DNA of 64,000 nucleotides from Microbacterium oleivorans (GTDB lineage: Bacteria; Actinomycetota; Actinomycetes; Actinomycetales; Microbacteriaceae): NCBI RefSeq assembly GCF_013389665.1, contig NZ_CP058316.1, positions 930,001-994,000 of the forward strand. The letters run 5' to 3'. A program made the position numbers and the translations under genes. Each line of letters begins with the position of its first letter. Within the stretch, counting starts at the first letter, position 1. Shown one piece after another: positions 31,515 to 41,305 of the stretch. The notes under the pieces were generated by a model. It did not search any database and was not told where the DNA came from. It was given only the letters and a program-made list of their open reading frames with translations.

Positions 31515-31541
31515 TCCCGTGTGGTATGACCACAGCGGGAT
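31515..31541. promoter_or_regulatory. Palindromic operator of the SufR-like regulator (TGTGGT-N3-ACCACA)
   Basis: TCCCG TGTGGT ATG ACCACA g CGGGA forms a nearly perfect dyad; the core TGTGGT-N3-ACCACA is 31520-31534. It overlaps the region where a -35 would lie relative to a -10-like TTTAAT at 31549-31554, so a bound protein would block transcription of the regulator. The same core appears twice before cydA. Confidence 0.65.
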
Positions 31542-31561
31542 TTCCGTGTTTAATGGGTTCC

Positions 31562-32188
31562 ATGAGCACCGCGACCGTCGGATACAGCGCCATCTCGAGC
31601 TATTCCCGCGTGGAGATCCTGCACCTGATCCAGGAGCAGCCGCGCCGGACGATCCTCGAGCTGCAGGAGGCGACGGACCTGCACCCGAACACGATCCGCG
31701 AGCACCTCGGGCGCCTGATCTCGGACGGTTTCATCGTCGCCGAGAAGGAACTGCGGACGACGCGCGGACGCCCGCGCGTGCTCTACAGCGCGGCCGACGG
31801 CGCTGCCACCCGGAGCGCAGTGCAGCGCCGCAAGGTGCGAGACGCCGCACAGCGCGGCGACCTCATGCGTCGCGTTCTCACCCTCGACGTGCCGGATGCG
31901 CTCGAGACCGCGGCGGTCCATCAGATCGACGCGCTGGTCGAGGAGCTCGAAGACGAGGGGTTCGACCCCGTCATCGACGACACCGCCCTCACGGTCGACC
32001 TCACCCCCTGCGCCCACGCCACCGCGCAGGCAGACCATCGCGAGGTGCTGTGCAGCGTCCACCTCAGCCTGCTGCAGGGCGTGCTCACCGAAGCGGGCGG
32101 ACCGCTCGCCGTCGACGGGATGCGGTCATCGTGCGACCCCTCGGTGTGCATCATCCAGCTCCTGCACGCCGCCAAGACCCACGACTGA
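31562..32188 (+). CDS. Winged-helix regulator with C-terminal cysteine cluster (SufR-like)
   Basis: A 208-residue transcription factor. Residues about 14-75 are an ArsR/DeoR-like winged helix (SRVEILHLIQEQPRRTILELQEATDLHPNTIREHLGRLISDGFIV, wing RTTRGRPRVLY). The C-terminal half carries C150, C164, C191 and C196 in the context CAHATAQADHREVLCSVHLSLLQG and CDPSVCIIQL. This is the layout of SufR-type regulators, where such cysteines hold an Fe-S cluster. There are no suf genes nearby. Instead its own promoter and the cydA promoter 3.5 kb away share one palindrome, so I infer control of cytochrome bd in response to oxygen, iron or NO. The ATG at 31562 is chosen because the earlier in-frame ATG lies inside the operator. 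Confidence 0.8.
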   Translation: MSTATVGYSAISSYSRVEILHLIQEQPRRTILELQEATDLHPNTIREHLGRLISDGFIVAEKELRTTRGRPRVLYSAADGAATRSAVQRRKVRDAAQRGDLMRRVLTLDVPDALETAAVHQIDALVEELEDEGFDPVIDDTALTVDLTPCAHATAQADHREVLCSVHLSLLQGVLTEAGGPLAVDGMRSSCDPSVCIIQLLHAAKTHD

Positions 32189-32203
32189 GCCCGACGACGA
32201 CGG

Positions 32204-32770
32204 TCAGCGCGACGTCGCGGCCACGAGGATCGCAGCGGTCGAGCGTGCGACGTCGACGCGGTGCGCCGGTTCGCGCAGTCGCATCGCCAGGTCGCCGCTG
32301 ACGACGAGGAGCAGACGCTCCGCGAGCTCGGAGGCGCGCTCCCCGGCGACGGGGCGAGCGAGGTCGATCAGACGCCCGCGCATGCCCTCGGTGTCGGCAC
32401 GGACGGCGGATGCCACCTCCGGCGGCGGATCGGCGTATTCGGCCGCGGCCCCCAGAAACGCGCACCACCGCGACCCCCGCGGTTCGCCTCGGAAGTCCTC
32501 GAGCGCGTCGAACACCGCCAGCAGTCGCCCCTCGGCGTCGCCTTTCCGAGCCACGGCTGCGTCCCAGGTCTCGCGCCACGCGCCCTGTCGCCGGTCGAGA
32601 GCGGCGGCGAGCAGAAGCTCCTTGCTGGGATAGCCGCGATACAGCGTGGCCGCCGACACCCCGGCGCGCTCGATGACCGCATCGATCGGGGTGGCCGCGA
32701 TGCCCCGGGTGAAGAAGAGATCCTCGGCGGCATCGAGGATGCGCGTCTCGGTCGCCGGCCGCAATCCCAT
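32204..32770 (-). CDS. TetR family transcriptional regulator
   Basis: A 188-residue TetR protein. The N-terminal HTH is complete (RILDAAEDLFFTRGIAATPIDAVIERAGVSAATLYRGYPSKELLLAAAL), and the C-terminal ligand domain is variable (ALEDFRGEPRGSRWCAFLGAAAEYADP). It is divergent from an MFS gene with only 11 bases between start codons, the classical arrangement of a TetR repressor and the exporter it controls. A short dyad CACTCTA-N7-TAAAGTG (32776-32796) covers both starts and could be the operator. The ligand is unknown. Confidence 0.88.
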   Translation of the reverse strand: MGLRPATETRILDAAEDLFFTRGIAATPIDAVIERAGVSAATLYRGYPSKELLLAAALDRRQGAWRETWDAAVARKGDAEGRLLAVFDALEDFRGEPRGSRWCAFLGAAAEYADPPPEVASAVRADTEGMRGRLIDLARPVAGERASELAERLLLVVSGDLAMRLREPAHRVDVARSTAAILVAATSR

Positions 32771-32781
32771 GTCAGCACTCT

Positions 32782-33984
32782 ATGCTCGATAAAGTGAAAC
32801 GCTCGTTTTTGTTTTCTCGGTGGGCGACCGTGGCCTCCGGCGTCGCCCTGATCGCGGCGACGTACGGCCTCGTGCGCCTGGCGTTCGGGCTGCACCTGCC
32901 CGACATCAGCGCCGACCTCGCACTCGAGACCGCCGCGGCCGGTGTCGTCTCGGCGGCGGGGTCCATCGTCTACGCGGTGGCGGCCGTCGTGGGATTCCTC
33001 GCCGGCGAGCGCCGTCCGCGCGCGCTCGTCATCGCGGCGACGGCCACGGCGGCCGGCGGGGCGATCGGCGTCGCCCTCGCACCGGATGCCGCGACGTTCG
33101 CCGTCGCCTCGGCGATCGCATCCGCCGGCGCCGGCCTGGCGTCGCCGGCGCTGGTGAGCATCATCGGACGGACCTTCGCGGGCGGCCCCGCCGGCACGGC
33201 GCAGGCGGTCGTGAACGCCGGAACCGGACCCGGTCTCGTCGCGGCCGGCCTGATCACCCTGGCCCTCGCCCCCGACTGGCGGCTGTGCTGGGCCATCGCC
33301 GCCGCCACCACGCTGGCCGCGGGCGTCGCCGTCCTGGTCACCGGCCGCGCGCGCGCCGACGACCGGACCCACGTCGACGGCGCAGCGCGGAGGCGCCGCC
33401 CGCTGCTGCCGCCGCGACCGTGGTGGCGATCGCACCGAGCACCGATCGCCGCCGCTCTCCTGCTCGGCGTCGGAGCCGCCGCCACCTGGAACTACGGGCG
33501 CGTGATCCTCGTCGACACCGGTGCGTCCGCGGCGCAGTCGGTGATGACGTGGGTGCTGCTCGGATGCGGCGGAGCAGCCGTCATCGCCACCTCGCCCGTC
33601 GTCCGGCGCCTCTCGCCACCGCGGCTGCTGCTGGTCTCGGCGGTGACGATGGCGCTGGCGACCGTCATCCTGGGGGCGGGAGCGGCGCATCCGATCATCG
33701 CCGGAGCCGCGTGCGCAGCGTTCGGCTGGGCCTACGTCACGGCCACGGGTGCGCTCATCGGCTGCACGGCAGCGATCGACCCCGCCCACGCGGCGGCAGG
33801 CACCGCGATGCTGTTCGTGATCTTCATGGTGGGCCAGGCGGCGGGCGCGGCGACCCTCGGCGCGATCCTGCCGCTGATCGGTCCGGTCGCCGCCTTCGCC
33901 GCGGCTGCCGCGGCGGCCGCCGTCGCCGGCCTCATCGCCGGGACGCGGAGCAGCTCGCTCGCGCCCGAGGCGGTCGGAGCCTGA
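32782..33984 (+). CDS. MFS transporter
   Basis: A 400-residue major facilitator superfamily protein with twelve hydrophobic segments in two halves. FGLHLPDISADLALETAAAGVVSAAGSIVYAVAAVVGFLAGERRPR contains the TM1-TM3 region with a degenerate loop 2-3 motif. The central cytosolic loop is Arg-rich (RRRRPLLPPRPWWRSHRAP). It is probably an exporter controlled by the divergent TetR regulator. The ATG at 32782 is used; a GTG at 32794 (VKRSFLFSRWATVASG) is an equally good start and would leave room for the intergenic dyad. Its end is 10 bases from the convergent moaA end. Confidence 0.85.
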   Translation: MLDKVKRSFLFSRWATVASGVALIAATYGLVRLAFGLHLPDISADLALETAAAGVVSAAGSIVYAVAAVVGFLAGERRPRALVIAATATAAGGAIGVALAPDAATFAVASAIASAGAGLASPALVSIIGRTFAGGPAGTAQAVVNAGTGPGLVAAGLITLALAPDWRLCWAIAAATTLAAGVAVLVTGRARADDRTHVDGAARRRRPLLPPRPWWRSHRAPIAAALLLGVGAAATWNYGRVILVDTGASAAQSVMTWVLLGCGGAAVIATSPVVRRLSPPRLLLVSAVTMALATVILGAGAAHPIIAGAACAAFGWAYVTATGALIGCTAAIDPAHAAAGTAMLFVIFMVGQAAGAATLGAILPLIGPVAAFAAAAAAAAVAGLIAGTRSSSLAPEAVGA

Positions 33985-33994
33985 CGGGGGCGGG

Positions 33995-35008
33995 TCAGCC
34001 GCCGATCGCGTTCATCCCGCGCGCGGGCTGGAGGAAGGACGGATCGTCGATCGCGTGGCCCGCCTTCTTTCCGGCGATGCAGTTGCGGAGGATCCGGTCG
34101 ACGTCGGCGGCGCGCTCCGAAGGCGCCACCTCCGAGCGCAGCACCGGCAGCAGGTCGTACTCGTCGATCGAGAACAGACAGTTGCGCAGCTGCCCGTCGG
34201 CAGTCAGGCGCATCCGATCGCAGGCGCCGCAGAAGGGAGCCGTCACCGAGGCGATGACACCCACCACGTGCGGCCCGTCGTCGAGCCGCCACTGCTCTGC
34301 GGGAGCGCCGCCGCGGCCGGGCACAGGGGTCAGCGCCCACCGCTCCGACAGCGCCGCAAGGATCTCCTCGCGGGTGACCATGGTGGATCGGTCCCAGGTG
34401 TGACCGGCGTCGAGCGGCATCTGCTCGATGAAACGCATCTGGGCGTCGTGCGCGATGGCGAAGGCCACGAGGTCGGCGAGCTCGCCGTCGTTCACCCCGC
34501 GCATCGCCACGGCGTTGATCTTCAGGGGACGCAGGCCCGCGAGCTGCGCGGCGCGCACACCCGCCAGCACGTCGTCGAGTCGGTCGCGACGGGTGAGGGC
34601 GTGGAAGCGTTCGCGGTCGATCGTGTCGAGCGAGATGTTCAGGCGGGCGAGGCCCGCATCGACGAGATCCGGCAGCACCTCGGGCAGGCGGATGCCGTTG
34701 GTCGTCATCGCGATCTCGATGGGGCCCGCGGGCGACTCGAGCGCGGCGAGGCGGCGGACGATCTCGACGATGTCGGTGCGCAGCAGCGGCTCGCCGCCGG
34801 TGAGTCGGAACGTCGTGATGCCGGATGCCGCGGCGACGCGGGCGACCTCGACGATCTCGTCGAGGGTGAGGATGCTCTGCCGCGCCAGCCACTCGTTGCC
34901 CTGCTCGGGCATGCAGTACGTGCAGCGCAGCGAGCAGCGGTCGGTCAGCGAGATGCGCAGGTCGCGGTGGACCCGGGCGAATCGGTCGACGAGTGGCTGC
35001 CCCATCAT
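33995..35008 (-). CDS. moaA: GTP 3',8-cyclase MoaA (molybdenum cofactor biosynthesis)
   Basis: A 337-residue radical SAM enzyme that converts GTP to 3',8-cH2GTP, the first step of molybdopterin synthesis. The N-terminal [4Fe-4S] site is C25, C29 and C32 (DRCSLRCTYCMPEQ). FRLTGGEPLLR is the SAM-binding GGE motif and RLNISLDT is conserved. The second cluster is held by CGACDRMRLTADGQLRNC. The terminal Gly-Gly tail required for activity is present (MNAIGG). Two adjacent ATGs at 35008 and 35005 are candidate starts. It is separated by about 10 kb from the rest of the cofactor genes and is divergent from cydA. Confidence 0.95.
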   Translation of the reverse strand: MMGQPLVDRFARVHRDLRISLTDRCSLRCTYCMPEQGNEWLARQSILTLDEIVEVARVAAASGITTFRLTGGEPLLRTDIVEIVRRLAALESPAGPIEIAMTTNGIRLPEVLPDLVDAGLARLNISLDTIDRERFHALTRRDRLDDVLAGVRAAQLAGLRPLKINAVAMRGVNDGELADLVAFAIAHDAQMRFIEQMPLDAGHTWDRSTMVTREEILAALSERWALTPVPGRGGAPAEQWRLDDGPHVVGVIASVTAPFCGACDRMRLTADGQLRNCLFSIDEYDLLPVLRSEVAPSERAADVDRILRNCIAGKKAGHAIDDPSFLQPARGMNAIGG

Positions 35009-35066
35009 GCGAGCGTATCCGCCCGTGAGCCCGAAGGGGCCGGCGTTGCGCATTGCGGGCCGCGTC

Positions 35067-35112
35067 TGTGGTCTGACACCACCTTGATTTGTGGTCAGAC
35101 CACGCTTAGCAT
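35067..35112 (+). promoter_or_regulatory. cydA promoter with two TGTGGT...ACCAC operators
   Basis: TTGATT (35084-35089) and TAGCAT (35107-35112) form a -35/-10 pair with a 17-base spacer. Operator 2, TGTGGTCAGACCACG (35090-35104), fills that spacer almost completely. Operator 1, TGTGGT-CTGAC-ACCACC (35067-35083), lies upstream with its centre 22 bases away, about two helical turns. Operator 2 has the same TGTGGT-N3-ACCAC core as the SufR-like gene's own operator. Confidence 0.65.
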
Positions 35113-35200
35113 TATTCCCGGCCCCCACCCGTACCCGGGAAAAACCCGCTCGATACCTTCAGCCTGACGAAACCTTCGCCTCCCCGAAAGGCACCGCCCG

Positions 35201-36628
35201 ATGGACTTCCTCGATCCGCTCCTGCTGGCCCGCTGGCAGTTCGGCCTGACGACGCTCTACCACTACCTGTTCGTCCCGCTGACCCTCGGCATGGCCCTGG
35301 TGGTGGCGATCTTCCAGTCGGTGTGGCACCGCACGGGCGATGTGAAGTGGCTGCACCTGACGCGCCTGTTCGGCAAGATCTTCCTGATCAACTTCGCCAT
35401 GGGTGTGGTGACCGGCATCGTGCAGGAGTTCCAGTTCGGCATGAACTGGTCGGCGTACTCGCGATTCGTCGGCGACGTCTTCGGCGCCCCCCTGGCGTTC
35501 GAGGGGCTCCTGGCCTTCTTCTTCGAGGCGACCTTCATCGGCCTGTGGATCTTCGGTTGGGACAAGCTCCCGCGAGCGCTCCACCTGCTGTCGATCTGGA
35601 TGGTGGTGCTCGGGTCGACGCTTTCGGCGTACTTCATCCTCGCCGCCAACGCGTTCATGCAGAATCCCGTCGGCTACCAGATGGCCGCCGACGGCGGGCG
35701 GGCGGAGCTCATCGACTTCGGCGCGGTGCTGACGAACCCGATCGTGCTCGCGGCGTTCCCGCACACCATCTTCGCCGCGTGGATGTTCGCCGCGGCCGTG
35801 GTCATCGCCGTCGCCGCGTGGCACCTCTCGCGCGCTCAGCACATCGAGACCATGCGTCCGGCTCTCCGCTTCGGCATGTGGGGCATGATCGTGTCGTTCG
35901 TCGGCGTCGCCCTCTCGGGCGACCAGCTCAGCCTCGTGATGGTCGCGACGCAGCCGATGAAGATGGCCGCCGCCGAGGCGATGTGGAACAGCGCGTGCGG
36001 TGCGGACGCGTCGTTCTCGATCTTCTCCATCGGCACACCCGACGGCACCGAGGAGGTGTGGTCGCTGCGGGTGCCCTACCTGCTGTCGTTCCTGTCGACC
36101 CACAGCTTCGACGGCTGCGTGGAGGGTCTGAACGACCTGCAGGCGCAGTACACCGAGACCTTCGGCGCGGGCGTCGACTACCGCCCGATCGTCTGGGTCA
36201 CCTACTGGTCGTTCCGCTGGATGATCGGCCTGGGCGGCGCCGCCACCCTGATCTCGGTCGCGGGCCTGTGGGTCACCCGCAAGAAGGCTCAGCGCCCGGT
36301 GGCCCGCTGGATGTGGAAGGTGGCCATCTGGTCGGCCCCCCTCCCCCTCCTCGGCAGCCTGGTCGGCTGGGTGTTCACCGAGATGGGCCGCCAGCCCTGG
36401 ATCGTGTTCGGCCTCATGCTGACCGAGGACGGCGTCTCCCCCAACGTCCCCGGCTGGACCGTGCTCATCTCGGTCATCGCCTTCACCGCCGTGTACGCCT
36501 CCCTCGCCGTCGTCGAGTTCGGGCTCATCCGCAAGGCCGCACAGCAGGGTCCGGATCCCCTGCCCGAACCGGGCTCGCCCGAGGCCGAGGATCCGGCGGC
36601 CTCCCACACCCAGACCACCGTCTACTGA
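35201..36628 (+). CDS. cydA: Cytochrome bd ubiquinol oxidase subunit I
   Basis: A 475-residue membrane subunit of the bd-type terminal oxidase, which oxidises quinol and reduces O2 with high affinity. H21 near the end of TM1 (GLTTLYHYLFVPLTLG) is the haem-ligand position. QEFQFGMNWSAYSRFVGDVFGAPLAFEGLLAFFFE is a near-invariant block, and GRQPWIVFG is the signature after the quinol loop. The quinol-binding loop is short, as in actinobacteria. A good GAAAGGCACC ribosome site precedes the ATG. It is first in the cydAB unit, with cydDC following. Confidence 0.97.
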   Translation: MDFLDPLLLARWQFGLTTLYHYLFVPLTLGMALVVAIFQSVWHRTGDVKWLHLTRLFGKIFLINFAMGVVTGIVQEFQFGMNWSAYSRFVGDVFGAPLAFEGLLAFFFEATFIGLWIFGWDKLPRALHLLSIWMVVLGSTLSAYFILAANAFMQNPVGYQMAADGGRAELIDFGAVLTNPIVLAAFPHTIFAAWMFAAAVVIAVAAWHLSRAQHIETMRPALRFGMWGMIVSFVGVALSGDQLSLVMVATQPMKMAAAEAMWNSACGADASFSIFSIGTPDGTEEVWSLRVPYLLSFLSTHSFDGCVEGLNDLQAQYTETFGAGVDYRPIVWVTYWSFRWMIGLGGAATLISVAGLWVTRKKAQRPVARWMWKVAIWSAPLPLLGSLVGWVFTEMGRQPWIVFGLMLTEDGVSPNVPGWTVLISVIAFTAVYASLAVVEFGLIRKAAQQGPDPLPEPGSPEAEDPAASHTQTTVY

Positions 36629-36639
36629 GGAGCACGACC

Positions 36640-37671
36640 ATGGATCTCGCATACGTCTGGTTCTTCATCGTCGGCATCCTGTTCGTCGGCTACTTCGTCC
36701 TGGACGGCTTCGACTTCGGCGTCGGGATGTCGTTGCCCTTCCTCGGCCGCGACAACGTCTCGCGCCGTCAGATCATCAACACGATCGGACCGGTCTGGGA
36801 CCTCAACGAGACCTGGGTCATCGTCGCCGGCGCCTGCCTGTTCGCGGCCTTCCCCGAGTGGTACGCGACCCTCTTCAGCGGGTTCTACCTGCCGCTGCTG
36901 CTCATCCTCATCGCGCTCATCCTGCGCGGGGTGTCCTTCGAGTACCGCCACCAGCGCGACGACGCCACCTGGCGTCGTCGCTTCGACCTCATGATCGTCG
37001 TCGGCTCGGCGCTCCCGGCCTTCCTCTGGGGTGTCGCCGTGGCCAACATCGTGCAGGGAGTGCCGATCGACGCCGACAAGGAGTTCACCGGCACGCTCCT
37101 GACCCTGCTCAATCCCTACGGTCTGCTCGGCGGTGTCGTGACCCTCCTGCTCTTCTTCACCCATGGCGTGTACTTCGTCGCGCTCAAGACCGACGGTGAC
37201 GTGCGCACCCGGGCGCGGAGCCTGGCGAACCGATCGGGACTGCTGACTCTCGTGGCGGCGGCGGTCTTCCTGGCGTGGACGGTGATGTCGGCGATGGGGG
37301 CGAACGCCCCGCTGCTGCCGTTGGTATTCATCGCGGCATCCCTGGCCGCCGTGCTGCTGATCGGGGCGATCATCGCGAACCTCCGCGGGCGCGAGGGCTG
37401 GGCGTTCGCCGCGGGAGCGGGCACCGTGATGTTCGCGGTGCTGACGCTCTGGCTCTCGCTGTTCCCCAACGTGATGCCCTCCTCGACCGACCCGGCGTGG
37501 AACCTCACGATCGAGAACGCGTCGTCGACCGACTACACGCTCACGATCATGACGTGGGCTGCCGTGATCTTCCTCCCGCTCGTGCTCCTCTACCAGGGCT
37601 GGACGTACTGGGTCTTCCGCAAGCGCGTCACCCGCGCGCGCATCGAGGAGGCCGAGCTCGTCGCACATTGA
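36640..37671 (+). CDS. cydB: Cytochrome bd ubiquinol oxidase subunit II
   Basis: A 343-residue partner of CydA with about eight or nine membrane segments. VGYFVLDGFDFGVGMSLPF at the start, IGPVWDLNETWVIVAGACLFAAFPEWYATLFSGFYLPLLLIL and RGVSFEYR are conserved landmarks. The Asp/Glu pair in DLNETW lies along the proton path. It starts 11 bases after cydA, with a GAGGAGC site overlapping the cydA stop. A 254-base gap follows before cydD. Confidence 0.96.
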   Translation: MDLAYVWFFIVGILFVGYFVLDGFDFGVGMSLPFLGRDNVSRRQIINTIGPVWDLNETWVIVAGACLFAAFPEWYATLFSGFYLPLLLILIALILRGVSFEYRHQRDDATWRRRFDLMIVVGSALPAFLWGVAVANIVQGVPIDADKEFTGTLLTLLNPYGLLGGVVTLLLFFTHGVYFVALKTDGDVRTRARSLANRSGLLTLVAAAVFLAWTVMSAMGANAPLLPLVFIAASLAAVLLIGAIIANLRGREGWAFAAGAGTVMFAVLTLWLSLFPNVMPSSTDPAWNLTIENASSTDYTLTIMTWAAVIFLPLVLLYQGWTYWVFRKRVTRARIEEAELVAH

Positions 37672-37925: not shown

Positions 37926-39644
37926 ATGGACGAGCCCGAGACGCCCGCGCGCTCGAGCGGCCGGCCCGTAGACCCGCGCCTGCTCCGCTACGCACGGACC
38001 TCGCGGCTGTTCTTCGTCGCCATCGGGGCGATCGGTCTCGCGCAGACCGTCGTCGTGGCCGCCTTCGCCTGGCTGCTGACCCGAGCGATCGTCGGAGCCG
38101 TCGAGGGCATCCCGGCGTCCGAGCTCGCGAGCGTGCTCGCCGCTCTCGGGGGCGTCGTCGCAGCGCGCGCGGGACTGCTCTGGCTGCGCGAGTCGATCTC
38201 CGCCCGCGCCGCAGCCCGGGTACGCAGCGAACTGCGCGATGCGCTCACCACGGCCGTCGGCCGCCTCGGACCGGGCTGGCTCGCCGGACGGAACTCGGCC
38301 CAGCTCGCGGTCACCGCCGGGCGCGGTCTCGACGCCCTCGACGCCTATTTCGGGCGCTATCTGCCCCAGCTCGTGCTCACCGCGGTCGCGACGCCGCTGC
38401 TCATCGCCGTGATCTGGTGGAACGACGCCATCTCGGGACTGACGGTGCTCCTGACGATGCCGCTCATCCCCCTCTTCATGGTGCTCATCGGCCTCGCCAC
38501 CCGCACGGTGCAGCGGGCCCAGTGGCAGACCCTGCGCCAGCTCGCCGCTCGCTTCGCCGACACCGTGCGCGGGCTCGCGACCCTGACCGTCTTCGGCCGC
38601 CAGCACCGCGCGGCGACGTCGATCGAGCGCGTGACCGAGACCTATCGGGCCGAGACGATGCGGGTGCTCCGTGTGTCGTTCCTCTCGGGCTTCGCCCTGG
38701 AGTTCCTCGCCTCGATCTCGGTGGCAATCGTCGCCGTCTCGATCGGGTTCCGACTCATCGACGGATCCCTCGGGCTGGCCGTCGGCCTCTTCGTCCTGCT
38801 GCTGGCACCCGAGGCCTATCTCCCGCTCCGGCAGGTCGGCGTGCAGTTCCACGCCGCCGCCGAGGGCGTCGCGGCCACCGACGACGTCTTCGAGGTGCTC
38901 GACGCCGCCCGTGAGCTGCCCTCCGCCCCCGCCCCCGCGGGCGCCGGTGCTCCGGCTGCGGCATCGGGCTCGGCGCGGGCCGCAGCCGGAGGGGGGCGGG
39001 TCGTCCGGGCCGACGGCCTGCGGGTCCGCCGCGGCGATGCGCTGCTCGAGCCGGTGTCGTTCGCGGCACAGCCGGGTACGGTCACGCTGCTGTCGGGGCC
39101 GAGTGGTTCCGGCAAGTCGAGTGTCTTCGCCGCGCTGCGCGGAGTGGCCGAGGCCGAGGGCACCGTGACGCTCGACGGCTCCTCGCTTCCCCCGGCATCC
39201 ACGTGGCTCGCGTGGGCGGGGCAGGAGCCCGGCCTCATCGCGGGGACGGTCGCCGACAACGTCGTCCTGGGCTCCCCCGCCGAGACCCTCGCGCAGCCCG
39301 AGGGCCGCCGGATGCTCCGACGCGCGCTCGATCTCGCCGGGGCGTGCTCGATCGATCCCGCTCTCGAACTGGGCGTCCGCGGTTCGGGGCTGTCGGGCGG
39401 ACAGGCCCAGCGCGTCGCGGTGGCGCGCGCGCTGTTCCGGCACCTTTGCGGCTCGGCGGGCGTCATCGCCCTCGACGAGCCCAGCGCCGCGCTCGACGCC
39501 GAGACCGAGGCCGCGCTGTGGCGGAGCCTCCGCGGCCTGGCCGACGGCGGCGCGACGGTGCTGCTGATCTCGCACCGCGCATCCGCACGCTCGATCGCCG
39601 ACCTGCAGGTCCCGGTGCGCGCCCGGCAGGCGGTGACCGCGTGA
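37926..39644 (+). CDS. cydD: Thiol reductant ABC exporter subunit CydD
   Basis: A 572-residue fused membrane-ATPase half transporter. With CydC it exports glutathione- or cysteine-like thiols and is needed for assembly of cytochrome bd. Six membrane segments occupy about 1-330, including GRYLPQLVLTAVATPLLIAVIWWNDAISGL typical of CydD. An Ala/Gly-rich linker follows. The ATPase has Walker A GPSGSGKSS, signature LSGGQAQRVAVARAL, Walker B IALDEPSAALD and LISHR. The ATG at 37926 is favoured by GAGGAG five bases before it over the GTG two codons earlier. It is coupled to cydC by a GTGA overlap. Confidence 0.94.
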   Translation: MDEPETPARSSGRPVDPRLLRYARTSRLFFVAIGAIGLAQTVVVAAFAWLLTRAIVGAVEGIPASELASVLAALGGVVAARAGLLWLRESISARAAARVRSELRDALTTAVGRLGPGWLAGRNSAQLAVTAGRGLDALDAYFGRYLPQLVLTAVATPLLIAVIWWNDAISGLTVLLTMPLIPLFMVLIGLATRTVQRAQWQTLRQLAARFADTVRGLATLTVFGRQHRAATSIERVTETYRAETMRVLRVSFLSGFALEFLASISVAIVAVSIGFRLIDGSLGLAVGLFVLLLAPEAYLPLRQVGVQFHAAAEGVAATDDVFEVLDAARELPSAPAPAGAGAPAAASGSARAAAGGGRVVRADGLRVRRGDALLEPVSFAAQPGTVTLLSGPSGSGKSSVFAALRGVAEAEGTVTLDGSSLPPASTWLAWAGQEPGLIAGTVADNVVLGSPAETLAQPEGRRMLRRALDLAGACSIDPALELGVRGSGLSGGQAQRVAVARALFRHLCGSAGVIALDEPSAALDAETEAALWRSLRGLADGGATVLLISHRASARSIADLQVPVRARQAVTA

Positions 39645-41305
39645 CGACGACGACCGACGTGCTGAGGGGTGCGATGCCCACCCCTCGCCGCTTCTGGCCC
39701 GCGCTGGCGACGGGCTTCGCCACCGAGGCCTCGGCCATCGCCCTGCTCGCGTGCAGCGCCTGGCTGATCGTCCGCGCGAGCGAGCAGCCCGCGGTCATGT
39801 ACGTCATGGCGGCCGTCGTCGGTGTCCGCGCGTTCGCGATCAGCCGCGCCGTCTTCCGCTACCTCGAGCGGCTCACCTCCCACGACGCGGCGCTGCGCCA
39901 GCTCGCGGTCACGCGCACCGACCTCGTGCGCCGGCTCATCCCGCTCGCCCCCGACGGCCTCGGCCGCATCCGCCGGGGCTCCGCGCTCTCGGCTCTGGTC
40001 GACGATGTCGACGACCTCCAGAATCTTCCGCTGCGGGTCGTGGAGCCCCTCGTCGCGTCGGCGACCGTCGCCCTGGCATCGGTCGTCTTCGTCGCGATCG
40101 TCTCGTGGCCGGCGGCGCTGACGCTGCTCGGGTGTCTCGTGGTCGCGGCGATCGCGGCGACCGGGTGGGGCTGGATCGCCGGCGCCCGCGCGGAGCGGAC
40201 CATCGCCCCGCTGCGCGCTCGCCTCGCCGACGCCGTGGCCGACCATCTCGGCAGCCTCGACGTCCTCCTCGCGTACGGCGCCGAGGCCGACAGCCGGGCG
40301 CGCATCGGCGCCGCCGACCGCGACCTGCGCCGGGCCGTCGTGCGCCGGGCCGGCGCACAGGCGGGCAGCACGGCCATCGTCTCGCTGGCGGCCGGCGCGG
40401 CCTCGATCCTCGCGGTGGCGGTGACGGCACCCCAGGTGTCGTCGCTCGGCGGCCCGTGGCTGGCGGTCGCGGCGCTGGTTCCCCTGGCCGTGTTCGAGGT
40501 CTTCACCACCGTGCCTCTGGCCGCGGCCTCCTGGCGGCAGGTCCGCGCCTCGGCGCAACGCATCGCCGAGACGGTTCCGAGCGACATTCCCGACGGCCTC
40601 GTCGAGAACGCGGTGGCGCCGACCGGGCAACCTCCGCAGCTGGGTGACGGCCTGCACCTGCGGGGCGTCTCGGTGTCGTGGCCCGGCGCCGATCGTCCCG
40701 CGCTGACCGAGGTCGACCTCGACGTCCGCCCCGGCGAGCGTCTGCTCGTGGTGGGATCGAGCGGCGCCGGCAAGTCCACCCTCGCCCACGCGCTCGTCCG
40801 GTTCCTCGAGGTCGAGGGAACCTATCGCCTCGGAGACGCCGACATGCGGCACCTCGCCCCGGACGACGTCCGCTCGACGGTCGGCCTGTGCGAGCAGCAG
40901 CCGATGCTCTTCGACGAGGACATCCGTCAGAACCTCCTGTTCGCCCGCGACACCGCCACCGACGCCGAGCTGGAGGCCGTATTGGAACGGGTGGGCCTCG
41001 GCACGTGGCTGCGGGAGCGCGGCGGGCTCGACGCCCGGGTGGGCGAGCACGGCGCACTCGTGTCGGGCGGCCAGGCCCAGCGCATCGCGCTGGCCCGCGC
41101 GCTGCTGCACGGCTTTCCGGTGCTCGTGCTCGACGAGCCGACGGCCGGCGTCGACCCCGCGGCTTCCGACGCGCTGCTGCACGACCTGCTGATGGCCGTG
41201 GACGACGATCGCGCCGTCGTGCTCATCTCCCACGTGCGCGTGCCGGACGCCCTGATCGACCGCACCGTGCGGATCGAAGCCGGTCGTATCGTCGGATCCG
41301 GTTGA
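39641..41305 (+). CDS. cydC: Thiol reductant ABC exporter subunit CydC
   Basis: A 554-residue half transporter. The membrane domain starts ATGFATEASAIALLACSAWLIVRASEQP and contains RAVFRYLERLTSHDAALR, both characteristic of CydC. The ATPase has GSSGAGKST, VSGGQAQRIALARAL, VLVLDEPTAGVD and LISHVR. The GTG start overlaps the stop of cydD. With CydD it forms the periplasmic thiol exporter that supports haem insertion into cytochrome bd. It ends four bases from the end of the convergent GNAT gene. Confidence 0.94.
   Translation: MTTTTDVLRGAMPTPRRFWPALATGFATEASAIALLACSAWLIVRASEQPAVMYVMAAVVGVRAFAISRAVFRYLERLTSHDAALRQLAVTRTDLVRRLIPLAPDGLGRIRRGSALSALVDDVDDLQNLPLRVVEPLVASATVALASVVFVAIVSWPAALTLLGCLVVAAIAATGWGWIAGARAERTIAPLRARLADAVADHLGSLDVLLAYGAEADSRARIGAADRDLRRAVVRRAGAQAGSTAIVSLAAGAASILAVAVTAPQVSSLGGPWLAVAALVPLAVFEVFTTVPLAAASWRQVRASAQRIAETVPSDIPDGLVENAVAPTGQPPQLGDGLHLRGVSVSWPGADRPALTEVDLDVRPGERLLVVGSSGAGKSTLAHALVRFLEVEGTYRLGDADMRHLAPDDVRSTVGLCEQQPMLFDEDIRQNLLFARDTATDAELEAVLERVGLGTWLRERGGLDARVGEHGALVSGGQAQRIALARALLHGFPVLVLDEPTAGVDPAASDALLHDLLMAVDDDRAVVLISHVRVPDALIDRTVRIEAGRIVGSG

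Follow-up and report, generated by a model that had tools for sequence, protein, structure and literature searches.

The window analyzed here is a 64,000-nucleotide stretch of the Microbacterium oleivorans genome (contig NZ_CP058316.1, positions 930,001 to 994,000), and our concern is the control of its cytochrome bd genes. These form a series on the forward strand consisting of cydA (35201..36628; PF01654, 533 bits), cydB (36640..37671; TIGR00203), cydD (37926..39644; TIGR02857) and cydC (39674..41305; TIGR02868), with the last three scoring above the cut-offs of their models. On the same strand lies the gene for a winged-helix regulator of 208 aa, which we call REG (31562..32188; HTH_24 and HTH_5 in Pfam). 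Two kinds of short element occur in the promoters of both REG and cydA. The first is a palindrome, present as TGTGGTATGACCACA before REG (31520–31534) and as TGTGGTCAGACCACG before cydA (35090–35104), where a looser copy, TGTGGTCTGACACCA, lies beside it (35067–35081). The second is an asymmetric motif, represented by the variant ATTATTCCCGGC before cydA (35111..35122, forward strand; one difference), which adjoins the palindrome, and by a probable variant, CCGTGTTTAAT, in the REG promoter (31544..31554, reverse strand; reading ATTAAACACGG in the other direction), with two differences from ATTATTCACGG.

All three palindromes are indeed located where a sequence-only reading of this DNA had placed them. 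Matches to the pattern TGTGGTNNNACCACR are not expected by chance in the window (0.00 in 100 shuffles). In the whole 3.35-Mb genome the pattern is found at six places, and a control pattern read backwards at none. The six places are the REG promoter, the cydA promoter, a position ∼100 bp upstream of adhE (NCBIfam PRK13805, 1356 bits), the upstream region of a membrane-protein gene, the inside of a dapE-like frame and the leader of rpsL. The membrane protein (L001:5063–5653) is DoxX-like by eye, has no Pfam or NCBIfam match and is preceded by the perfect form of the site. The dapE-like and rpsL places, both named by eye, were treated as unrelated. When the window is aligned with seven close Microbacterium relatives (eight genomes in all), the palindromes and the variants of the asymmetric motif rank with the most strongly conserved stretches of either promoter; the two promoters do share conserved motifs. 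All eight genomes keep TGTGGTANGACCACA of the REG-promoter palindrome, TGTGGTCTGA (the left part of the looser copy) and an unchanged CCGTGTTTAAT; ATTATTTCCGGC is found in two. The REG start at 31562, which had been taken as given, is not certain, because the first palindrome itself contains an ATG in the same frame, at 31526. The start codon also seems to fall within the palindrome in some relatives, as judged by eye from rows of which some show the wrong strand.

REG and cydA are firmly linked by position, as had been suspected from the window alone. The two genes are on the same strand within 5 kb of one another in 104 of the 106 REG-carrying genomes with a listed cydA: REG directly precedes cydA in 64 (20–305 bp) and is 1.2–4.6 kb away in 40, the arrangement seen in the window. 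In the remaining two it is farther away or on another contig. By position, REG is thus strongly tied to cytochrome bd in this set of 106 genomes, and less so outside it. The interval between the two genes in the window holds a TetR-family regulator (32204..32770, reverse strand; Pfam), a major facilitator superfamily (MFS) transporter (32782..33984, forward strand; Pfam) and moaA (33995..35008, reverse strand, divergent from cydA; TIGR02666, above cut-off), whose start is inferred, the longest frame reaching 35128. This interval, the part of the window scanned for suf genes, contains none.

The sequence-only reading took the palindrome for the operator of REG, and the distribution of the site before cydA speaks instead for a second regulator, the GntR/FadR-type protein LldR. 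We searched the 300 bp upstream of cydA in 150 Microbacterium genomes (those among the matches listed, of 185 with a cydA match; second matches per genome were dropped) for the palindrome with at most one mismatch. REG was scored as present at E ≤ 1e-10, which holds for 127 of 198 genomes; G250, G310, G315 and G338 contain only a paralog of 30–35% identity. A close LldR was scored as absent where there was no match at 1e-35 (16 genomes), where the only match was weaker than 1e-50 (G183, G202, G226, G238, G252, G283 and G311), or in G192, which is fragmented. The family and genus names of the G-numbered genomes are inferred from named relatives, and Fisher tests on the resulting table ignore relatedness. 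In genomes with LldR, the palindrome precedes cydA in 35 of the 42 that lack REG, in 26 of the 31 with REG 1–5 kb away, in 2 of the 54 with REG adjacent to cydA and in one of the two with REG far away. It is found in none of the 19 genomes that carry REG without a close LldR (0/10 with REG adjacent, 0/9 with REG near) and in one of the two that have neither, this one being a fragmented assembly. Because of these counts, we conclude that REG is not needed for the palindrome before cydA, and that LldR seems to be. Loss of the site before cydA in genomes that keep the regulator had been named beforehand as what would speak against REG as its owner, and this is largely what is seen: the palindrome, with at most one mismatch, precedes cydA in 29 of the 106 REG-carrying genomes.

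The palindrome is also found upstream of lldR itself. Its perfect form, TGTGGTNNNACCACA, occurs in 56 of 150 sampled genomes of the family, and a REG homolog in only 15 of the 150. In genera other than Microbacterium, 20 of the 28 palindrome loci lie within 300 bp upstream of an lldR homolog (GntR/FadR type), 18 of these 20 belong to genomes without a REG homolog, and an lldD homolog is present in the piece read at all 20. The 31 Microbacterium loci (one per genome among the matches listed) comprise 11 before lldR, 3 before cydA and 1 before lldD. The remaining loci lie in other places, and almost all of them show other forms of the pattern. Since the site precedes lldR in genomes without REG, and since the cydA site tracks LldR, the palindrome is most likely the LldR operator. 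In the window, both copies before cydA are predicted LldR-type sites and that before REG is a probable one. That REG itself binds TGTGGT-N3-ACCACR and represses its own gene and cydAB is, by comparison with these distributions, very improbable. It would account for the presence of the palindrome in both promoters of the window and its seven relatives, and for its recurrence at varying positions in the REG promoters of close relatives (some rows on the wrong strand), but not for a cydA site that is common where REG is missing and absent where REG occurs without a close LldR, nor for the lldR-upstream sites of 18 REG-less genomes. We rejected REG as the palindrome binder on these two grounds.

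In the genome of the window (G000), lldR lies outside the window at genome position 816551–817246. It is preceded by two degenerate copies of the palindrome site and followed by an lldD-like gene for a flavin mononucleotide (FMN) dehydrogenase, whose highest-scoring NCBIfam model, that of L-lactate dehydrogenase, stays under its cut-off. The G000 LldR has GntR and FCD domains (PF00392, PF07729). It scores 87.6 bits against the cut-off of 311 for the NCBIfam LldR model PRK10421, a model of the enterobacterial protein, and the NanR subfamily model scores higher, likewise below cut-off. The LldR operator has the consensus TNTGGTCNNACCANA. A Microbacterium LldR homolog from G106, 69% identical to that of G000, has PDB entry 2di3 as its closest solved structure (E 2.9e-45), and this entry is named as the LldR of Corynebacterium glutamicum in passages of PMC4494728. 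The same paper describes LldR-type sites of the FadR subfamily as two boxes, TKGT and ACMA, in which GT and AC are 3 nt apart.

Two further genes carry the palindrome in their upstream regions. adhE is found in 24 of the 198 genomes, with a palindrome (at most one mismatch) upstream in 20 of the 24, one of the upstreams (G194) being only 89 bp long. nrdD is found in 27 genomes, all of which carry REG, and is preceded by a palindrome (at most two mismatches) in 18. Single-letter shuffles, scored at the looser cut-off, yielded no match (0/540 and 0/480). The placement of these sites suggests a role for LldR in governing a set of low-oxygen genes.

A different motif accompanies REG, and it had been missed in the sequence-only reading. 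It emerged from a comparison of all 8-mers in the cydA upstreams of genomes with and without REG, together with the REG upstreams. The top 8-mer, ATTCACGG, precedes cydA in 46 of 106 genomes with REG and in 0 of 44 without, and precedes REG in 59 of 106. TTATTCACGG, with at most one mismatch, is found before cydA in 64/106 versus 1/44 (1/530 in single-letter shuffles), upstream of REG in 64/103 and upstream of either gene in 95/103; the counts over 103 genomes leave out G232, G249 and G286. The exact 12-mer WTTATTCACGGC has 91 matches genus-wide in 80 genomes, all of them among the 127 with REG and none among the 71 without, and the reversed pattern occurs once. Fifty-one of these matches stand before REG and 24 before cydA (75 together), leaving 16 elsewhere. 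Three of the 16 precede pyruvate formate-lyase genes (G283, by Pfam; G183 and G202, by eye), two precede members of one protein family without a Pfam match (L343:1607–2377 in G284; L346:1598–2362 in G288), and two (G214 and G266) precede another protein, which has no Pfam match in G266. Others, for example one within a coding frame, look like chance. Relatives of the G284/G288 protein adjoin REG, by eye, in G106, G182, G184 and G223 (L301, L307, L309 and L310). In the pyruvate formate-lyase promoter of G283 (L353, ∼1480–1512), and likewise in that of G183 (L352), ATTATTCACGGC lies beside a decayed LldR-type site; both genomes are without a close LldR.

We consider it probable, with moderate confidence, that two regulators, LldR and REG, converge on the cydABDC promoter, so that the cytochrome bd switch may read two signals. 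LldR, as an L-lactate-responsive repressor of the GntR/FadR type, would bind the TGTGGTCNGACCACA sites before cydA, REG and adhE, and before nrdD in relatives, and would be released by lactate that accumulates at oxygen shortage. REG would bind ATTATTCACGGC / ATTATTCMCGGC, for which the window has ATTATTCCCGGC upstream of cydA and CCGTGTTTAAT upstream of REG itself, and would control both genes. It would answer to oxygen, nitric oxide (NO) or redox state, by way of a probable iron–sulfur (Fe–S) cluster on its three invariant C-terminal cysteines. Observed directly are the sites and where they occur, the linkage of the genes and the conserved cysteines; the match of protein to site, the cluster and both signals are proposed, as is repression rather than activation.

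Several observations weigh against this reading. On the side of LldR, when two mismatches are allowed, no more than 22 of 87 REG promoters from genomes with LldR contain a palindrome, and 1 of 19 (G226) from genomes without a close one; the REG-promoter palindrome of the window also has an A at a position where the other sites have a C. Shared ancestry leaves, on a tree, only one to five well-supported independent pairs of genomes per comparison, among them one for LldR versus the site (in genomes with REG not adjacent to cydA) and two for REG versus its motif. The pairs that differ nearly always do so in the expected direction, but significance is unreachable for any comparison, most LldR pairs show no difference in the site and a few random pairings run the opposite way. 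On the side of REG, the exact 12-mer is absent from the genome of the window, whose own sites are the variants that stand in its place. The motif is missing before cydA in 42 of the 106 genomes with REG and before both genes in 8 of 103. It is also non-palindromic, which is unusual for a dimeric winged-helix protein: a palindromic form was rejected when a second arm was not found (2.66 of 8 matches versus 2.28 shuffled). The sequence TTATTCMCGG has two occurrences in the genome of the window, one upstream of cydA and the other upstream of nrdD (none for the reversed control), but nrdD was rejected as a conserved REG target with the motif in 1 of 27 nrdD promoters. Finally, cydA is listed for 106 of 123 REG places, and when 9 of the other 17 loci were inspected, one had cydA in the piece read.

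Co-inheritance could mimic both associations, and a third factor that merely co-occurs with LldR and REG might bind the palindrome or ATTATTCACGGC. We regard this as unlikely, because each motif precedes the gene with which it co-occurs. Rex and Crp control cytochrome bd genes in other bacteria, Rex in Actinobacteria. Crp is reported to do so in Mycobacterium smegmatis (PMC7739888). The Rex consensus is given as TTGTGAA-N4-TTCACAA in PMC2883068 and that of GlxR/Crp as TGTGA-N6-TCACA in passages of PMC7999487. In contrast to these systems, neither consensus is found at the cydA promoter of the window: there is no Rex-type site with up to three mismatches in the window, and the four Crp-type matches with up to two mismatches lie away from that promoter. 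Scans of the window for these two consensuses and for that of SufR led us to reject sites of all three regulators at this promoter.

The REG protein has exactly four cysteines, C150, C164, C191 and C196, as the sequence-only reading had reported. C150, C164 and C196 are retained without exception (245 of 245 distinct homologs) and C191 is kept in only 184 of 244, in a set made up of the 120 best database matches plus matches at the loci covering >170 residues, in which closer relatives are over-represented. H167 does not vary across an alignment of 47 rows. The spacing, C150-x13-C164-x31-C196, is similar but not equal to the C-x12-C-x27-C of C203, C216 and C244, which are needed in M. tuberculosis Rv1460 according to passages of PMC6034842. 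SufR is described in passages of PMC8593673 and PMC11995493 for cyanobacteria, M. tuberculosis (Rv1460), Streptomyces avermitilis and C. glutamicum. REG resembles these proteins in joining a DNA-binding N-terminal half to C-terminal cysteines of similar spacing, and differs from them in being linked to cyd rather than suf. The likeness to Fe–S regulators noted at the outset thus holds for the cysteine layout and, by the NCBIfam model, does not extend to membership of the SufR family: REG is below every NCBIfam cut-off, scores 29.4 bits (helix-turn-helix part only) or 28.1 bits against the 178.8 required by the curated SufR model TIGR02702, and has no SufR-type CAAC-N6-GTTG site anywhere in the window. 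That model describes cyanobacterial SufR; it is passed by 1 of 14 control genomes and by no protein of the genome of the window. From the conserved residues, the REG cysteines probably hold an Fe–S cluster and Fe–S sensing is plausible. A doubtful alternative is that REG senses through thiol chemistry, for example in the sulfide-responsive manner reported of the ArsR-type proteins YgaV and SqrR, or through a metal ion. The cysteines could pair, Escherichia coli YgaV is a weak sequence match to REG (E 0.78), and YgaV is reported to control anaerobic respiratory genes (PMC9774250), but the three invariant cysteines and H167 are in a C-terminal part that is absent from the 99-residue YgaV chain, and their spacing is close to that of Rv1460. 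A divergent REG paralog in G315 (∼33% identity; L357) adjoins a gene resembling flavohemoglobin (NO detoxification), a neighbor that would fit NO or redox sensing.

Returning to the two-regulator reading, its LldR component can be compared with C. glutamicum, where LldR represses cg3226-lldD and is relieved by L-lactate (passages of PMC7874156), and also represses fermentative ldhA (passages of PMC7999487). The Microbacterium system is alike in protein sequence (2di3), in the linked lldD-like gene and in a site of the 3-nt-spaced FadR type, the comparison of sites being with the FadR-type boxes. It differs in that the same type of site here precedes cydA, adhE, nrdD and REG. Among the open-access matches listed, titles and openings of abstracts reveal no link of LldR to cyd and no SufR-like cyd regulator in Actinobacteria, subscription journals being mostly outside this set. 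PMC7999487 and PMC7874156, in the passages available, mention both LldR and cyd in C. glutamicum and do not link them; no paper on the subject was found among the listed matches to the motif letters, and none of the matches listed names a cytochrome bd regulator for Microbacterium or its relatives. Such silence is weak evidence of absence. More tentatively, and short of an even chance in our view, lactate could serve as a stand-in for oxygen shortage, with LldR over cydABDC, adhE, nrdD and REG and with REG representing a new, cyd-linked class of Fe–S regulator that has an asymmetric operator of its own, ATTATTCACGGC, and brings a second input, oxygen or NO, to the same promoters; where REG lies next to cydA, the LldR site would be dispensed with. 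If true, the two-regulator reading provides a two-signal model of cytochrome bd control for Microbacterium and its relatives, with two short operators and a set of predicted target genes. It also illustrates how a motif, though correctly sighted, may be credited to the wrong protein if one genome alone is read.

Two minor observations concern neighboring and unrelated sites. moaA adjoins cydA in the window, and elsewhere a molybdopterin-biosynthesis gene of the MoaB/Mog type adjoins REG with no cydA nearby (L307:32–550 in G184, by profile match; L306, L308 and L310, by eye). In the apparent rpsL leader, TGTGGTGAAACCACG is kept in several Microbacterium genomes (L004, L088, L099 and L106) and is perhaps an RNA hairpin.

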